26,208 bases of DNA, from positions 1-26,208 of the IMG/VR virus record IMGVR_UViG_3300042474_000309. One strand, written 5' to 3'. A model generated the notes under the pieces. That model saw nothing but the letters and a program-made list of their open reading frames with translations, had not been told where the DNA came from and ran no database searches. This DNA is from a virus. A program made the position numbers and the translations under genes. Below are positions 2,756-20,116 of this stretch, one piece after another (the first letter of the stretch is position 1; each line of letters begins with the position of its first letter).

Positions 2756-4660
2756 ATGTACAGTATAGAAGAAATTGCAGCTAAGATTAAGCGTGTTTCT
2801 GCTCTTGCTATTGAAGCCGAGAGAGAACGCAAACAAAGAGCTTACAATAGTGATGTAGCTATGTTATTCGGTAGCGAATACATTGATGTACTTCCAGACT
2901 ATTTTGAAGGCTATGATGAATCAGTTGAAGATTATGAAGCTATTAGAGTTCATAGTGAGAAGAACTGTTTCCCAGCAAGATTGTTTGCAAAAAGAGCACC
3001 TAATCAAACTGAACAAGCAGCTCGTTGGATGCAAGATAACTATAAAAATGTTACGCAACCAGTATTCGTTGATTTCTTAAATACTGTACTTCGTGCAACA
3101 CACGACCAAAATTGGAGTATTCACTTTGGTTTAGATGCACCACAATACGAACAAGCTGGATTAACATTCCAAAAATATTTAGATAATGGTATTAGAGATT
3201 ATGGTTCATTAGAATCATTCTTTAAACAAGTGATGTTTGCATTGCAATTAAAAGATGCAATGGGAGTTATTGCTATCAGACCAGATTCTCTTGAAATGCT
3301 TGAAGATGAAAATGGTGGATATGTTTTAGATTCAAATAAACTTATTGAACCACAACCATATTATTTTACATCAAGACAAGTAGTTGGATTTGATACAAAT
3401 TGTTGTATTGTAGAATCAGAAAAAAAATCTATTGTAGAATATTACGGAAGCAAAAGAGAAAAAGGTAGAATCTATGAGTTTTATGATGACCAAAATATTT
3501 GGTTTTGTAAACAAGTAGGTAAATATGTAGATAATCAATTTGAGATTACTTTATTTTACAATCATGGTTGGGGTAAAGTCCCAGCTACTCGTTTAAGAGG
3601 TATTCCAGTAGTTTACGAAGGTAAAGTATTATGGCAATCTCCTTTCTTATTTGCTACTGACTTATTAGATTTAGTGGCACAAAATAGTGCTTACAAACAA
3701 GCAAGTATTGCTAAATGCGTATTCCCAGCTACAATTATGTTGGGAGATATTTGTGAGTTTGAAGAAAATGGAAATAGATGTAGCGATGGTATTATAGGAT
3801 TCAATGATGAAGATGGTAATTATCATTCTCACACTTGTTCTAATTGCCACGGTGTTGGTTTAGTTTCTCGTTTAGGCCCATTGGAAACAATGTTAATTAA
3901 GCCAGAAGTTAGAGGACAAAATGAAAGTGAATTGCGTTCTTCTCAAGAGCCATTAAAATATGTTTCTCCAGAAGTTCATACTTTACAATTCTTAGAGGAA
4001 TCTATTGATAAGACCGAGATTAAAGCTCGTAAGATTCTTCACTTGCAAACTTCAACCTCTGATATTAAGGGTTATGAGAATATGACTGCTACTGGAACTG
4101 TATTAGACAATAAAGCTGCATTTGCATTTATTATGCCTATTGCACATACTGCATTTGAAACATTTGAGTTTATCATTAATGCTATTGGATGGATGCGTTA
4201 CAAGGATGATTATGTAAAGCCTTCTATTGCATATCCACAAAGCTTTGATATTGGAACTGAAAGAGATATTTTAATGACTATCTCGGAAATGGTTAAGAAC
4301 CAAGTTCCAGCAGTATTGATTCACGCAGAGATATTCAGATACTTAAAATCAGTATTCTACACAGATGCTAAAACAACTGCTGTTTATGAATTAATGATTA
4401 ATACAGATAGGTTATTAGTTTTAAGTGGCGATGAGGTTATGTTAAGACAAGCTAAAGGTCTTGCAGAAAGATGGGAAGTTATCTTACACGATTCATTTAT
4501 GTCATTTGTAGACCAAATGATTGCTTTAGAACCAGATTTCTTAACTCAAGAATTTGAAGTTCAAAAGACTAAGATAGTTGATATGGCTAAATTGAAAGCT
4601 AATCAAATAACTGAAAGTAATAATGTTTCTGTACAAGGTATTGATTCAATGATTCAATAA
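2756..4660 (+). CDS. Portal protein
   Basis: A 634-residue protein in the portal position: just upstream of a MuF-like head protein, scaffold and capsid genes. Length suits a Bacteroidota phage portal, the dodecameric ring through which DNA is packaged. The central region (roughly 290-330) has the AATDLLDLVAQNSAYKQ-like helix before the Cys-containing insertion, and long helices near the C-terminus fit the crown or stem. A cysteine set C333-x8-C342-x18-C361-x2-C364, ending in CSNCHGVG, looks like a small zinc ribbon. The assignment rests on order, length and general resemblance, not on a single diagnostic motif. It shares its final A with the ATG of the next gene. Confidence 0.75.
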   Translation: MYSIEEIAAKIKRVSALAIEAERERKQRAYNSDVAMLFGSEYIDVLPDYFEGYDESVEDYEAIRVHSEKNCFPARLFAKRAPNQTEQAARWMQDNYKNVTQPVFVDFLNTVLRATHDQNWSIHFGLDAPQYEQAGLTFQKYLDNGIRDYGSLESFFKQVMFALQLKDAMGVIAIRPDSLEMLEDENGGYVLDSNKLIEPQPYYFTSRQVVGFDTNCCIVESEKKSIVEYYGSKREKGRIYEFYDDQNIWFCKQVGKYVDNQFEITLFYNHGWGKVPATRLRGIPVVYEGKVLWQSPFLFATDLLDLVAQNSAYKQASIAKCVFPATIMLGDICEFEENGNRCSDGIIGFNDEDGNYHSHTCSNCHGVGLVSRLGPLETMLIKPEVRGQNESELRSSQEPLKYVSPEVHTLQFLEESIDKTEIKARKILHLQTSTSDIKGYENMTATGTVLDNKAAFAFIMPIAHTAFETFEFIINAIGWMRYKDDYVKPSIAYPQSFDIGTERDILMTISEMVKNQVPAVLIHAEIFRYLKSVFYTDAKTTAVYELMINTDRLLVLSGDEVMLRQAKGLAERWEVILHDSFMSFVDQMIALEPDFLTQEFEVQKTKIVDMAKLKANQITESNNVSVQGIDSMIQ

Positions 4661-5583
4661 TGACTTTAGAAGAAATTATAAAGCTTAAATTATCAAGGTT
4701 AGATGATATTCCTACTGCATATACTAATGGTATAAAAGATACGCAGAAGGAAATTATGTTAGAGATGTTGGATTCTTTAGAACAACTAAAGAGGGATGAG
4801 AACGGAAACATAAAAAGAACTCAAGCTAACCTATCAATCATTGAGGATATTAATGATGACCTACAAAAGATATTTAAGGCTTCAGAGTACCTTTCTTTGA
4901 CTTCAGTATTCTTAAAAGAGTTTGATGAACAAGCAAAAATAACAGATGACTTCTTTAAGAAAGCATTTGGAGATTTTGAGGTATCTTCTTTTAATTTAAA
5001 GGCATTAGAGGTAAGCCGTAAACAAGCATTTGAATTAATGGCTGGACAAGCTTATTTAACTTCTAATCTATACAATCCAGTAAAGAATATCTTAACAGAT
5101 GCAGTAGTTGCTGGGGATGCCTACGGTAAGACAGTTAAAGCTATCAGCCAAGCCATACAAGGTGGTACAATCAACGGAAACAAGTTAGAGGGTAGATTAT
5201 ATCGTTATGCTAAACAAATGGCTTTTGACACCTTCGCAGTAGCTGACAGAGGATATACTAATAATATAGCTCAAGATTTAGATGTGGAATGGTATGCTTA
5301 TAGAGGTGGCCTTGTTGAAGATTCAAGACAATTCTGCATTACTCGTAACGGAAAATACTACCATAAGAAAGAAGTAGAAGCTTGGGGAGATTTAAAACAA
5401 TGGGATGGTAAAATTAGTGGAACTGATAGCAAGACAATATTTGTTTATGCTGGAGGTTATAGATGTAATCATTCCATACTTCCTAATGCCATATCTGCTA
5501 CACCAGTAGATGTTATTAAAAGGAACATTGAAAATGGTAATTTCACACCTACTAAAGCAGAGATAGAAATATTAGGATTGTAG
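4660..5583 (+). CDS. MuF-like minor head protein (SPP1 gp7-type)
   Basis: A 307-residue protein immediately after the portal (TAATG overlap). The C-terminal third carries the phage Mu F / SPP1 gp7 head-morphogenesis signature: DSRQFCITRNGKYYHKKE near residues 221-238, a conserved tryptophan (KQWDG), and a terminal GYRCNHSILP block with the Cys-x-His pair near 266-268. The N-terminal part is helical. Such proteins sit inside the procapsid and may be ejected with DNA. No toxin domain is fused. Its stop is TAG, the only TAG I found ending a gene in this window, and it overlaps the 3' end of the opposite-strand tRNA-like gene. Confidence 0.88.
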   Translation: MTLEEIIKLKLSRLDDIPTAYTNGIKDTQKEIMLEMLDSLEQLKRDENGNIKRTQANLSIIEDINDDLQKIFKASEYLSLTSVFLKEFDEQAKITDDFFKKAFGDFEVSSFNLKALEVSRKQAFELMAGQAYLTSNLYNPVKNILTDAVVAGDAYGKTVKAISQAIQGGTINGNKLEGRLYRYAKQMAFDTFAVADRGYTNNIAQDLDVEWYAYRGGLVEDSRQFCITRNGKYYHKKEVEAWGDLKQWDGKISGTDSKTIFVYAGGYRCNHSILPNAISATPVDVIKRNIENGNFTPTKAEIEILGL

Positions 5584-5705
5584 TTAGGATAGGATTTGAA
5601 CCTATATGGTAGGCTTATCTAGAAAGCCGTTTGAAGTACCTATTACAAAAGTCTTATAGCTATTAATGCTTTTGATTTTAGCGTTTACCGTTTCGCCACC
5701 TAACT
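5581..5705 (-). tRNA. tRNA-like gene with 51-nt insertion, identity unresolved
   Basis: Read on the minus strand, AGTTAGG at 5705-5699 pairs perfectly with CCTAACT at 5588-5582. A D-arm GCG/CGC with GG in the loop follows TG at positions 8-9. The T-arm is ATAGG-TTCAAAT-CCTAT, a perfect 5-bp stem with a canonical 7-nt loop. Next to it is a 5-bp/7-nt hairpin, GGCTT-TCTAGAT-AAGCC. Between D-arm and this hairpin lie 51 extra nucleotides (5629-5679), including a CAAAAG/CTTTTG stem (5674-5669 with 5651-5646). Removing them leaves a 74-nt class I cloverleaf. The loop would give anticodon TAG (Leu) but with C instead of U at position 33; shifted by one it reads CTA (amber suppressor). Alternatively the hairpin is a class II variable arm. 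The D-arm resembles tRNA-Leu. No CCA is encoded. Confidence 0.55.
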
Positions 5706-7660: not shown

Positions 7661-8710
7661 ATGTCGTATGTATTAGGACAATTAACAGCGTGTCCAACCA
7701 TTCAAAGAGAACTGACAGAGTATTTTATGACTTGTCCAGTTAATGAGTTTATGCCATTCTTCGAATTCGTAAACTCTCCAGTAAACAATATCGGCTTATC
7801 TCAAGAGGTAGCCCCAGGCGGTGGAAAGATTAGAAATGTAAGATTAACTTACACTCCTCGCCAATTAGAATCAGCAGTTACAGCTAACATTGCTAACCCT
7901 AAGTGTGATGTATCTAACTTCATTGGAGATAGATTTACAGATTACACATTAGATACAGATGAAAACCAAGGTATTGGTTTCTCAATGACTGCTCAAGAAT
8001 TAGAAGCAGCTTGTATTGCTAACGAAACATATTTTGTTCGTAGATTAGCAGATTTAGTTGATGCTTTAGACCGTAAATTAGCTACCGAGCATACTGCTGA
8101 CTTAGCTTCTTTAGTAGGTAACTGGGCTTCAAATGTAACTATGAACGCATCTAATGAGTTTGTAGTAAATACATTACAAGCTGGTTCAACTTTCATTGAC
8201 CCACAAACAACTGCAAAGATTGACTTTGCAATGCAAAAGACTGGTTATTGCAATGAATCAATGATTTTTGCTGGTTCTACTCTTGCAGAGTATTACAGAG
8301 CAACTTCATCTGCTGGATGTTGCACACAACAAGGTATTGATGTTGCGACTATCTTCAACCAATACGGTAAAGCGGTAGCTTATGACAGAAGAATCGAAGC
8401 GATTTTTGGAACAGATAAAGCTGTTGCAATTCAAGCTGGTTCATTAACTTTGTTAAGCTATACTCGTAGCCCTTGGAAAGAAGGTATGCCACTTCCTTAC
8501 CGTGATGCTGGTAACTACATTTCAACTGTAATTCGCTCTCCAAGAACTGGAATCCCTATGGATTTAACAGTTTCTGATAGCTGTGGTACAGTTTCGGTTT
8601 CACTTGTAGCAACTACAAAACTTGTTGGATTACCTTTGGACATTTATGCTCAAGGCGATTTCATGAGTGGTGTAAACTACATGGCGAAAATCAAAGTTAC
8701 AAATTCATAA
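7661..8710 (+). CDS. Major capsid protein
   Basis: A 349-residue protein after the scaffold and before a strong terminator. It begins MSYVLGQLTACPTIQRELTE, has an APGGGKIRNVRLTYTPR segment, and an ACIANETYFVRRLADLVDAL helix resembling the long spine helix of HK97-fold proteins, followed by a mixed region with several cysteines (GYCNES, AGCCTQQG, SDSCGT). Length and order fit a capsid protein. No catalytic motif or signal peptide is seen. Codon use is even and strong, as expected for the most abundant virion protein. A related encapsidating role is likely; the exact family is not recognised. Confidence 0.8.
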   Translation: MSYVLGQLTACPTIQRELTEYFMTCPVNEFMPFFEFVNSPVNNIGLSQEVAPGGGKIRNVRLTYTPRQLESAVTANIANPKCDVSNFIGDRFTDYTLDTDENQGIGFSMTAQELEAACIANETYFVRRLADLVDALDRKLATEHTADLASLVGNWASNVTMNASNEFVVNTLQAGSTFIDPQTTAKIDFAMQKTGYCNESMIFAGSTLAEYYRATSSAGCCTQQGIDVATIFNQYGKAVAYDRRIEAIFGTDKAVAIQAGSLTLLSYTRSPWKEGMPLPYRDAGNYISTVIRSPRTGIPMDLTVSDSCGTVSVSLVATTKLVGLPLDIYAQGDFMSGVNYMAKIKVTNS

Positions 8711-18368: not shown

Positions 18369-18395
18369 AGCTCCACTTTATGTGGGGCTTTTTTT
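18369..18395 (+). terminator. Rho-independent terminator
   Basis: AGCTCCAC (18369-18376) pairs with GTGGGGCT (18382-18389), one G-U pair, loop TTTAT, then a run of T. The promoter box TATATTTG begins two bases after the T-run. Confidence 0.9.
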
Positions 18396-18396
18396 G

Positions 18397-18404
18397 TATA
18401 TTTG
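18397..18404 (+). promoter_or_regulatory. -7 promoter box (TATATTTG) for RNA at 18409
   Basis: Exact TAnnTTTG match. The predicted start 4-6 bases downstream falls at 18408-18410, exactly where the first stem arm (GAGGG) of the downstream RNA begins. No recognisable -33 box. Confidence 0.55.
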
Positions 18405-18408
18405 CATT

Positions 18409-18553
18409 GAGGGTCATATAGTAAATTTAAGCCAATTATATACACATTGCACTTAAAAAGTATTAAAGAGGTAGTGTATAATCTCCTCCCTCGCTTTACA
18501 TTAGCAATAATGTAAATTAAAACAACCCTTGAGCAATCTTGGGTTGTTTTTTT
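18409..18553 (+). ncRNA. Candidate structured small RNA (about 145 nt)
   Basis: No credible ORF. The predicted 5' end GAGGG (18409-18413) pairs with CCCTC (18488-18492). Nested inside, TATACAC (18439-18445) pairs with GTGTATA (18474-18480). Next comes a perfect 7-bp hairpin TTACATT/AATGTAA (18496-18502 with 18509-18515), and then the terminator stem (18519-18528 with 18541-18550). A promoter, nested stems and a terminator in about 160 bp make a small RNA gene likely. Target or ligand unknown. It does not look like tmRNA or tRNA. Confidence 0.6.
18519..18553 (+). terminator. Rho-independent terminator of the 18409 RNA
   Basis: AAAACAACCC pairs with GGGTTGTTTT (10 bp) around a 12-nt loop, followed by T to 18553. 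The next promoter box begins at 18555. Confidence 0.85.
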
Positions 18554-18554
18554 G

Positions 18555-18562
18555 TATATTTG
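18555..18562 (+). promoter_or_regulatory. -7 promoter box (TATATTTG) for the 18581 gene
   Basis: Exact match one base after the preceding terminator. Predicted start near 18566-18568 gives a leader of about 13-15 nt before ATG 18581. Confidence 0.55.
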
Positions 18563-18580
18563 TATATAAAATTTAAAGAT

Positions 18581-18757
18581 ATGCTAAGAAAAGCAAAAGG
18601 AGCATCAAAGAAAGCTGTACAATCAGCTATTTCCTATAACATTAAAGATTTAATGAAAGACAATAAAAAGTCTGGTAAAGCAAGAGGTGCTGGTGGAAAA
18701 GTAAGGCCAATGAATCAAATTTTGGCTATTGCTATCTCAAAAGCTAAAGGAAAATAA
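18581..18757 (+). CDS. Small basic protein, DUF6496-like
   Basis: A 58-residue Lys-rich protein starting at ATG 18581 (MLRKAKGASKKAVQSAISYN). The ORF continues upstream to 18539 but that stretch lies in the terminator and promoter. The end, MNQILAIAISKAKGK, resembles DUF6496-type phage proteins in which a QAVAIALSKAGK-like helix ends the chain. It has its own promoter box and stands alone between two candidate RNA genes. Its basic nature suggests nucleic-acid binding, and it could bind the neighbouring RNAs, which is speculation. Confidence 0.65.
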   Translation: MLRKAKGASKKAVQSAISYNIKDLMKDNKKSGKARGAGGKVRPMNQILAIAISKAKGK

Positions 18758-18766
18758 AAAATATAG

Positions 18767-18800
18767 TTTGCATTTAATATCAAAATTATTGCTATTTTTG
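18767..18800 (+). promoter_or_regulatory. Promoter TTTG / TATTTTTG for RNA at 18805
   Basis: TATTTTTG at 18793-18800 fits the -7 box; TTTG at 18767-18770 is 22 bp upstream, slightly longer than usual. Start expected near 18804-18806. Confidence 0.5.
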
Positions 18801-18804
18801 CATA

Positions 18805-18996
18805 TAAAATTGTAACAACTAACTAAAAATATTACGGTGGGTGCAACTCGGTTTACGGCTTATTGCACATAGCTTCCTACCTTGTTGCTTCAGCAATGAA
18901 ATAGTGCAGACCCATTGTAGTCTAAGTTCCAGCTCGTTGCCAACAACTTGTTGTCGCTTAGTATCCCCCGAAGAGTAAAATCTTAGGGGGTTTTTT
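18805..18996 (+). ncRNA. Candidate structured small RNA (about 190 nt)
   Basis: A non-coding stretch with higher GC than its surroundings and dense pairing. GGTGGG (18836-18841) pairs with CCTACC (18876-18881) and continues inward with TGCAA/TTGCA (18842-18846 with 18863-18867). TTGC-TTCA-GCAA follows (18885-18896). CTAAG (18922-18926) pairs with CTTAG (18957-18961) around a CAACA/TGTTG hairpin (18941-18953). The RNA ends in a strong terminator. An alternative fold pairs TGGGT (18838) with ACCCA (18910). Together with the promoter this is a good independent RNA gene. A 6S-like or other regulatory class cannot be assigned by eye. Confidence 0.65.
18965..18996 (+). terminator. Rho-independent terminator of the 18805 RNA
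   Basis: CCCCC (18965-18969) pairs with GGGGG (18986-18990), with an inner AAGA/TCTT stem and loop GTAAAA, then TTTTTT. Very strong for this AT-rich genome. Confidence 0.92.
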
Positions 18997-19007
18997 GTTT
19001 AAATAAG

Positions 19008-19027
19008 TTTTGTACGCTTTTTTGTAC
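19008..19027 (+). repeat. Direct repeat TTTTGTAC, possible operator
   Basis: TTTTGTAC occurs at 19008-19015 and 19020-19027, 12 bp start to start, about one helical turn. It lies 30 bp upstream of the -33 box of the promoter at 19057, where an activator could bind. The unit includes the palindrome GTAC. Only two copies, so chance is possible. Confidence 0.35.
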
Positions 19028-19056
19028 ATACATAGAAACATACTTTTATAAAAAAG

Positions 19057-19087
19057 TTTGCATATATAAAAAACATTATTACCTTTG
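19057..19087 (+). promoter_or_regulatory. Consensus promoter TTTG-N19-TACCTTTG
   Basis: TTTG at 19057-19060 and TACCTTTG at 19080-19087 with exactly 19 bp between: the best match to the Bacteroidota consensus in the window. Start expected near 19091-19093. Confidence 0.8.
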
Positions 19088-19090
19088 CAG

Positions 19091-19193
19091 TATCAAAGAG
19101 TATTTGTTCGGACAAGCAGATACCCTTTCGAAGGGAAAAGAGAGAAAGAAATAAAATTGGAGTTAAGGTGTCCGACTTAGCTCCTTTTTTTTT
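19091..19193 (+). ncRNA. Attenuator/riboswitch-like RNA with terminator
   Basis: GTATC (19090-19094) pairs with GATAC (19119-19123), enclosing a TTGT-TCGG-ACAA tetraloop hairpin (19104-19115). CCCTT-TCG-AAGGG (19123-19135) follows. An A-rich linker leads to a terminator: GGAGTTAAG (19159-19167) with CTTAGCTCC (19176-19184), one G-U pair, then nine T. The terminator loop contains TGTCCGA (19169-19175), fully complementary to TCGGACA (19108-19114) in the upstream hairpin, giving a 7-bp pseudoknot or alternative pairing. Promoter, aptamer-sized fold and terminator are the parts of a transcription attenuator; it could equally be a free small RNA. Confidence 0.6.
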
Positions 19194-19529
19194 GACATTT
19201 TTTGAGGTCTTTAAAGGGTTGAATCCTCGGTAGCTATACGAATCTACCAAAATGAACGGCCAAGTTTAACTAAATTAGAGCTTTTGCAGAAAGAAACTGT
19301 AAAAGAAAATATCAAATGTTTAAAGAGTGTGCAATGCTAAAGGGAGCAACACACGACAATAAAAAAGATTACAAACATTTGCCTTCGGATTAAGGATATT
19401 TAGAATAAGCATTGAATTAGCATCGTTAAATAAAAGCTAAGGACATTTAATAAATCGGTCATCTGCGATGATTAATAGAGATTTATTGGATATAACCCTA
19501 CTATGGAATTAACTTAAAAAACAAATAAA
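19194..19529 (+). other. Non-coding stretch with further hairpins
   Basis: No credible ORF over 336 bp and no exact TAnnTTTG box. Hairpins seen: GGTAG/CTACC (19229-19233 with 19244-19248); GTGTG plus TGCT paired with AGCA plus CACAC (19327-19354); and AATAAATC/GATTTATT (19449-19456 with 19480-19487) enclosing TCATC-TGC-GATGA (19459-19471). It would be the long 5' leader of the small gene at 19530 if transcription reads through the terminator at 19159-19193. Confidence 0.45.
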
Positions 19530-19625
19530 ATGGAAGATTTAAAAGAACACCAGTATTGGATTGACAAACAAGAAGATTTAGCAAGTGATTGCGAAAATAA
19601 TGATATTGAACAATGCGAAGATTAA
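19530..19625 (+). CDS. Acidic 31-residue protein
   Basis: ATG 19530 to TAA 19625, beginning MEDLKEHQYWIDKQEDLASD and ending NDIEQCED. It is very acidic and presumably soluble. It overlaps the next small membrane-protein ORF by 13 bp, in the style of real genes here, and is preceded by an AAATAAA-type spacer common before Bacteroidota starts. Unknown function. Confidence 0.4.
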   Translation: MEDLKEHQYWIDKQEDLASDCENNDIEQCED

Positions 19626-19744
19626 CTTTATTAGAGTTATGCCTTATTTATGCTTTAAATATAGCTTTGATTATATTTGTAATTAAGATGATAATTAACG
19701 GATTTCTCTATGTATTAAGGTTTTATAATTTAGAATCATTCTAA
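19613..19744 (+). CDS. Small single-pass membrane protein
   Basis: A 43-residue ORF from ATG 19613, starting MRRLTLLELCLIYALNIALI, with one long hydrophobic helix (LIYALNIALIIFVIKMIING) after two arginines, then a short basic/aromatic tail. Topology inside-in with a transmembrane helix is likely. Location next to the early promoter suggests an early gene. Unknown function. Confidence 0.4.
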   Translation: MRRLTLLELCLIYALNIALIIFVIKMIINGFLYVLRFYNLESF

Positions 19745-19758
19745 ATTGCAAATAGTTC

Positions 19759-19789
19759 TTGACAGATGTTAAAATAAACCACACCTTTG
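19759..19789 (+). promoter_or_regulatory. Early-module promoter (TTG / CACCTTTG)
   Basis: TTG at 19759-19761, then 20 bp to CACCTTTG (19782-19789), a one-base variant of TAnnTTTG. Start near 19793-19795, leader about 16-18 nt to ATG 19811. It should drive the recombination and replication genes. Confidence 0.6.
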
Positions 19790-19810
19790 TCCTACCAAAA
19801 CAAAACGAAA

Positions 19811-20116
19811 ATGATAAAACTTAAACAACCACAAATTTTAGATGTTCAAGTGAACAACTTTAATTTCCAAGAGGAGTATCTCGTTTCTTATACAGATGGA
19901 GATATTATCTACCACCACGACTTTTTAGTTGCCGACCTTATTAAATGGGTTTGTAACAATCACTTAGTAGGCTATGGTGGAATGGTAGCATTAGAAATTA
20001 AATCTTCTAATCCTAATCAGAAAGAACCTATTATTGTTAGAGAGCCTTTGCAGACTTTCATTGAAGCAAACTACAAAGGTATTATTCAAAACCTATTAAC
20101 TCAAGCAAGTTTATGA
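19811..20116 (+). CDS. Hypothetical early protein
   Basis: A 101-residue protein from ATG 19811 (MIKLKQPQILDVQVNNFNFQ). The in-frame TTG at 19787 is inside the promoter box and rejected. The sequence looks beta-rich at first (EEYLVSYTDGDIIYHHDFLV) with helices later (IEANYKGIIQNLLTQAS). No family recognised. It overlaps the next gene by 4 bp and leads the ERF operon, so an accessory role in recombination is plausible. Confidence 0.65.
   Translation: MIKLKQPQILDVQVNNFNFQEEYLVSYTDGDIIYHHDFLVADLIKWVCNNHLVGYGGMVALEIKSSNPNQKEPIIVREPLQTFIEANYKGIIQNLLTQASL

Follow-up and report, generated by a model that had tools for sequence, protein, structure and literature searches.

The window analysed here is the entire 26,208-base IMG/VR record IMGVR_UViG_3300042474_000309. 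It derives from a tailed phage and carries recognisable genes for portal, endolysin, Erf-type annealing protein, exonuclease and NinG. The locus of interest holds the following features.

19057..19087, + strand: promoter of the Bacteroidota type, with TTTG (-33) at 19057-19060 and TACCTTTG (-7) at 19080-19087
19100..19123, + strand: 5' hairpin HP1, 24 nt, with stem GTATTTG/CAGATAC and 10-nt loop TTCGGACAAG
19108..19114, + strand: kissing segment 1, TCGGACA, in the HP1 loop (from sequence and covariation)
19124..19134, + strand: HP2, a small, weak but conserved hairpin, CCTTTCGAAGG
19159..19193, + strand: intrinsic terminator, with stem GGAGTTAAG/CTTAGCTCC, loop GTGTCCGA and nine T
19169..19175, + strand: kissing segment 2, TGTCCGA, in the terminator loop (from sequence and covariation)
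19204..19500, + strand: element B, a conserved non-coding stretch of ~290 nt and putative structured RNA, directly behind the terminator
19530..19625, + strand: microgene 1, 31 aa, MEDLKEHQYWIDKQEDLASDCENNDIEQCED, kept in seven of eight records
19613..19744, + strand: microgene 2, with a hydrophobic product of 43 aa, retained in each of the eight records, among them the more distant L083

To our knowledge, RNA-level control in Bacteroidota phages is little described, and their hosts use unusual promoters. The promoter that an earlier note on this DNA had placed at 19057 lies where it was claimed and matches the Bacteroidota -33/-7 consensus TTTG/TAHHTTTG, from which transcription starts 4-5 nt past the -7 element (PMC6847099). 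The transcription start is expected at about 19092-19093. A sigma-70 scan of the window listed no promoter at 19057, as the Bacteroidota type escapes that scan. The promoter is nearly invariant across eight records, and by blastn its region resembles regions that hold promoters in crAss-like phages and microviruses. This likeness, together with the promoters themselves, points to a member of the Bacteroidota as the host.

The predicted leader RNA is ~100 nt long, ends at 19193 and has a fold z-score of -2.66; a purine-rich linker separates HP2 from the terminator. The complementarity noticed earlier between TCGGACA and TGTCCGA is perfect and correctly located, and it covaries in relatives. Both 7-mers sit in hairpin loops, the second entirely inside the 8-nt loop of the terminator. 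No second target of the HP1 loop turned up in the phage: outside the two kissing sites, the 26,208-base record has no TCGGACA. Run without a promoter requirement, our detector returned exactly one site in the window, this same pair; among 150 random windows of equal dinucleotide make-up, 3 also yielded a site. The bare 7-nt match is thus weak evidence, unremarkable as chance complementarity at an ordinary terminator, and it is the compensatory changes in relatives that decide.

Seven further IMG/VR records of this RNA (type I) were collected by neighbouring-gene and pattern searches. They bring the loop haplotypes to five, four besides that of the window, with both sides changed and the pairing kept. 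The loop pairs are as follows.

TCGGACA/TGTCCGA: window and L086
CCGACA/TGTCGG: L002
TCCGAACA/TGTTCGGA: L082, L083 and L091
CGACACA/TGTGTCG, with differing flanking letters: L085 and L094

The kiss spans 6-8 bp, and five of the eight kissing pairs occur as more than one Watson-Crick type. Of the 40 cells given by these haplotypes, 35 are Watson-Crick, a value equalled by only 2 of 120 partner permutations. An alignment of six type I records places two-sided changes at three kissing pairs and one stem pair, with a covariation score that exceeds all 500 shuffles and is lost on sliding the partners. The type I stems hardly vary while the loops do; in HP1 the closing pair covaries (G-C or A-U) and the remaining stem pairs are invariant.

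A second family (type II) occupies the corresponding place in more distant phages, where it was found by a scan for architecture and not for sequence; pattern scans then widened its range. Its HP1 loop reads AAG followed by 7 nt, and its kiss sequences (GTCGAGAG, GTAGAGAG, GTTGACAG, GTAGACAG, GTCGTAAG and GTAGTGAG) are each perfectly complementary to their own terminator loop. In the six haplotypes tested all 48 cells are Watson-Crick, and only one of 720 permutations, the true one, reaches that value; one of the widening patterns fixes letters at some kiss positions, so that conservation there is partly imposed. One shuffled-partner control was contaminated by homologues and was left out. A promoter-anchored scan of 2.7 Mb gave 19 distinct hits, 18 of them judged convincing, against none in a reversed/complemented control, which also alters the frequency of the -7 motif. 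The excluded hit (L175, 3991) was judged from its sequence to fall within the primase-like reading frame. Further families comprise a second site in L195 (GCTCTGAC), L026 (GTGGAGG), L025 (GGTGCAT) and L056/L069/L079/L081 (CTACGAAC). The shared architecture consists of a Bacteroidota -7 element, a 5' hairpin, a distance of 37-59 nt from one paired segment to the other and a terminator with a complementary loop; the middle part of the leader is not conserved. We tabulated 23 leaders of 90-111 nt with 21 distinct kiss sequences and kiss duplexes of -7.8 to -15.8 kcal/mol. Many of the records are fragments, the hosts assigned to the uncultured ones are putative, and sequence counts do not equal independent events. 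The contig L195 carries two kissing leaders, at ~1541-1633 and ~3494-3589, of different families and with different kiss sequences. The type I covariance model gave weak matches only, both against 50 more-distant ERF phage records (E 0.1-0.4) and against metallophosphatase loci. The exact pattern had six hits in bacterial and archaeal genomes (Marinicaulis, Thermaerobacter, Thermococcus, Nitrososphaeria, Peribacillus and Fictibacillus), judged to be chance from the organisms alone.

The same architecture is present in cultured phages.

Flavobacterium phage 11b, 33629-33718: kiss CGGGCAGG
Flavobacterium phage FCL-2, 37483-37582: kiss CATCCAC
Flavobacterium phage morran9-1 (L316): kiss GTGAGAAG
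hattifnatt9-1, relative of the morran9-1 leader: kiss GTGAGACG
mumin6-3, relative of the morran9-1 leader: kiss GTGGAACG
F. columnare phage V175, relative of the morran9-1 leader: kiss GTAGAGAG
Cellulophaga phage phi10:1: GTACGAC/GTCGTAC
Cellulophaga phage phi18:3: CTTCTGAC/GTCAGAAG

The leaders of mumin6-3, phi10:1 and phi18:3 were read by eye, their -7 element or hairpin being beyond the limits of the detector. A blastn search started from the leader region of morran9-1 returned 127 phage records, and many of these align to only a part of that region. Flavobacterium phage 6H and Bacteroides phage B40-8 gave no kissing leader with this detector. A longer complementary pair in Riemerella phage RAP44 is a different thing, and a 6-nt candidate in Croceibacter phage P2559S was not counted. 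In morran9-1 the annotated hypothetical gp42 (HWC92_gp42, L316 2492-2635) overlaps the kissing leader and is probably no gene; the same genome has a DUF805b RNA (RF02914, 52 bits) at 1173-1207, shortly upstream of a ParB-like gene. Complementary hairpin loops with compensatory changes make a real kissing-loop interaction a well-supported reading of these sequences. Chance complementarity retains a negligible probability, given that two families show compensatory changes and that the design recurs in cultured phages; on the sequences compared, it is refuted already by the covariation.

The position of the RNA relative to genes provides insights on its role. At 14 listed sites, which include related phages (such as L165/L177/L195/morran9-1 and L128/L174/L132) and thus represent fewer independent cases, an open reading frame of at least 48 codons starts 0-45 nt past the terminator, and the gaps are all free of -7 elements. 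Each of these sites shows the order expected of a transcription attenuator: a promoter, a terminator and then a gene that reads the same way, no further promoter intervening. Given this arrangement the RNAs look like leaders, and the downstream genes would be reached only through the terminator, from the leader promoter or from upstream. Leader position is thus well supported by the sequences. A ~100-aa protein of no assigned function follows in L128, L174 and L132, where the gene is kept with the leader. In L165 and L195 a small protein is followed by a helicase or replication gene; morran9-1 encodes the same small protein with a primase/helicase two genes on, and annotation order gives a small protein and then a helicase/replication gene in mumin6-3 and phi18:3 too. 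Judged by its start sequence, the downstream gene is kept with the leader in L165/L177/L195/morran9-1. A GIY-YIG homing endonuclease lies behind a leader in L195, a T5orf172/MUG113 protein in L025 and a weak NucS_C match, below the Pfam cut-off, in L026; the remaining downstream genes have no family match.

A free-standing phage small RNA is a possible, if somewhat unlikely, alternative. The terminated ~100-nt molecule would then be the product, its end hairpins locked together to protect the ends or to present a surface to a host protein, and the genes behind it would be transcribed from upstream or little expressed. Promoter and terminator are both strong, and neither the window nor L086 has a sizeable ORF directly behind the terminator. 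The architecture is conserved while the downstream content varies between phages, and the unconserved middle part suggests that the closed shape may be what counts. Against this stand the ORFs at most 45 nt past the terminator with no promoter between at the 14 listed sites, the retention of the same gene with the leader in several phages and the lack of a conserved single-stranded region for pairing with targets.

As the downstream genes appear reachable only past the terminator, we consider the best explanation, with moderate confidence, to be that the RNA is a 5' leader and a transcription attenuator that relies on a kissing loop. The transcript would begin at about 19092, and its first ~30 nt would fold into HP1. 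About 35 nt later the terminator would form, and its loop would pair with the HP1 loop. Most transcripts would probably stop at 19193, giving an RNA of ~100 nt. Those that read through would copy element B and the microgenes in the window, and in other phages would reach a replication operon, a homing-type endonuclease or another gene. By holding the terminator loop before RNA polymerase has left the terminator, the kiss may set or switch the share of read-through. That regulation occurs, its direction and any signal to which it responds are inferred.

The predicted folding bears on the timing of the kiss. The 7-mer lies wholly in the terminator loop, so that kiss and terminator stem are compatible at equilibrium and any effect on termination would be kinetic. 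When the nascent RNA ends just past the terminator loop, that loop is paired with the HP1 loop sequence in the predicted minimum-energy structure of 20 of the 23 leaders; the window is one of the three exceptions. In the full transcript this pairing is predicted to be displaced in 21 of 23. These predictions model the pairing as a nested helix that opens HP1 and not as a true kissing complex. Such pairing before the 3' arm of the terminator exists argues that the kiss can form when termination is decided. We looked in the 23 leaders for an antiterminator that would exclude the terminator and found none that is conserved; only for L169 and L304 is the minimum-energy fold of the full-length RNA an extended long-range helix. 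Attenuators that lack a mutually exclusive antiterminator exist. Three points weigh against the attenuator. The window and its closest relatives have no sizeable ORF directly behind it, the kiss, which can coexist with the terminator stem, might do no more than stabilise the RNA, and close downstream ORFs are also expected in compact phage genomes.

These results revise the earlier proposal of a possible riboswitch or attenuator. The riboswitch part is not upheld, because no aptamer is present beyond the 24-nt hairpin and there is no Rfam match. Control of downstream sequence by a leader or attenuator gains support from the covariation and from the genes behind the terminator in other phages. 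The loop pairing that had been offered as a pseudoknot or a block of the terminator stands through covariation; a block by simple exclusion does not, with the 7-mer contained in the 8-nt loop.

The loops might also pair between molecules, the leader RNA of one phage genome binding the nascent leaders of another copy, with copy-dependent shut-off or same-kiss immunity as the outcome, as for P4 CI and P1 c4 or plasmid incompatibility RNAs. Type I loops do differ between phages with ~90% identical surroundings and nearly invariant stems, many cross-pairs between haplotypes have weaker pairing energies than self-pairs, and the two leaders of L195 differ in kiss sequence. We nonetheless regard pairing in trans as decidedly improbable, as a cis partner at 37-59 nt should normally outcompete it; moreover, L085, L094 and L002 still cross-pair well, and the kiss GTAGAGAG is shared by the unrelated phages L169 and V175. 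A more specific form of the attenuator, which we put forward as a speculation and think unlikely to hold as a whole, is a self-contained Bacteroidota-phage module that needs no ligand or protein. HP1 would capture the emerging terminator loop and set read-through, and the loop pairs would diversify in register like incompatibility determinants, thereby avoiding cross-reaction between phages or between two loci of one phage.

Comparison with known systems was made first through Rfam 15, which at gathering and at permissive thresholds gave nothing on the leader of the window; weak matches only were obtained for 18380-19830 at E up to 5, and the leaders of other phages gave no match at E up to 0.5. 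The only hit in the window is tRNA-like and lies elsewhere (5581-5705, - strand, 38 bits over 125 nt); it is not called by ARAGORN. A metabolite riboswitch would be recognised by a conserved aptamer, and none is present: the linker is preceded by the 24-nt hairpin, whose sequence is unconserved across families. In the corrinoid (cobalamin) riboswitches a kissing loop between L5 and L13 promotes or prevents the terminator depending on the platform, as in P. megaterium metE and A. halodurans cobT (PMC10653944). This is the closest experimental precedent; there too, a loop in the 5' part of the leader pairs with the loop of a hairpin that belongs to the expression platform. The phage leaders differ in having no ligand aptamer and an HP1 of only 24 nt, in that the partner is the terminator loop itself, in more kissing pairs (7-8 in most), in the phage genes behind them and in the lack of an Rfam match.

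The P4 CI and P1/P7 c4 antisense RNAs are small, derive from phage leaders and control premature termination through complementary segments. The c4 RNA is Rfam RF01695, listed in PMC2864571. The RNA described here is likewise small, leader-derived and built on complementary segments, but it has no Rfam match, and its complementarity joins a hairpin loop to the terminator loop of the same short leader. Type III toxin-antitoxin loci (toxIN) have the order promoter, structured RNA, terminator and gene, the gene being expressed through a leaky terminator. The kissing leaders share this order; however, inspection finds a single unit in place of tandem repeats, and in Pfam and PHROGs scans the downstream genes are not ToxN-like (GIY-YIG, T5orf172, weak NucS_C or no family). 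The packaging RNA (pRNA) of phi29 is a phage RNA with two complementary, covarying loops, as is the kissing leader, which in contrast lies away from the genome end and directly before genes, possesses an intrinsic terminator and has no Rfam match. No description of such an RNA was found in the open-access full text searched. The leaders apparently represent a widespread, undescribed type of built-in gene control in Bacteroidota phages. The module is recognised by architecture and not by sequence, and hence would be overlooked by homology searches. It is present directly before replication and endonuclease genes, in contigs of uncultured phages as well as in Flavobacterium and Cellulophaga phages in culture. 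The loop pairs are ready material for swaps that address how a tertiary contact with the terminator loop affects termination; they are possibly also orthogonal expression parts for Bacteroidota.

Downstream of the leader, 340 nt had been described as free of genes. There is indeed no sizeable ORF at once, but the stretch is not empty, since ~19204-19500 is the conserved and covarying element B. This element is present in four records: the window (19204-19500), L086 (~8085-8390), L169/L130 (~3690-4010 in L169) and L199/L132 (~930-1260 in L199). It sits behind a kissing leader either directly (window, L086 and L169) or after one gene. Eleven of 52 predicted pairs are changed on both sides, and no Rfam model matches; with four sequences in two close pairs, the structure is tentative. 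In L002, L082, L083, L085, L091 and L094 its place directly behind the leader is taken by ~330 nt, which hold an open frame, KHNLTDFNKWTKRGESHLYYQYVGQTFKSCDWAVKHLPSKSQAITDSYLRS, with no start codon and then a hairpin, perhaps a gene remnant. The microgenes at 19530 and 19613, also named in the earlier note, are real reading frames kept in relatives.

Other elements lie nearby. A second cassette of promoter, RNA and terminator (~18767-18998, fold z-score -3.25) is located between a DUF6496-like gene and the kissing leader; it is absent from relatives and has no match in the phage collection. At 18407-18547 the window has an insertion of ~140 nt relative to its relatives, which ends in a terminator-like hairpin (AACAACCC...GGGTTGTT) with a T run and has no match among the loci compared. 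Finally, the palindrome AGAATCATTCT (window 19732-19742; L004 ~4127-4149) lies within a stretch of 23-27 nt that is present twice in relatives. The gene at 19811 is preceded by a promoter-like site, and the stretch, a likely operator, lies upstream of that site.
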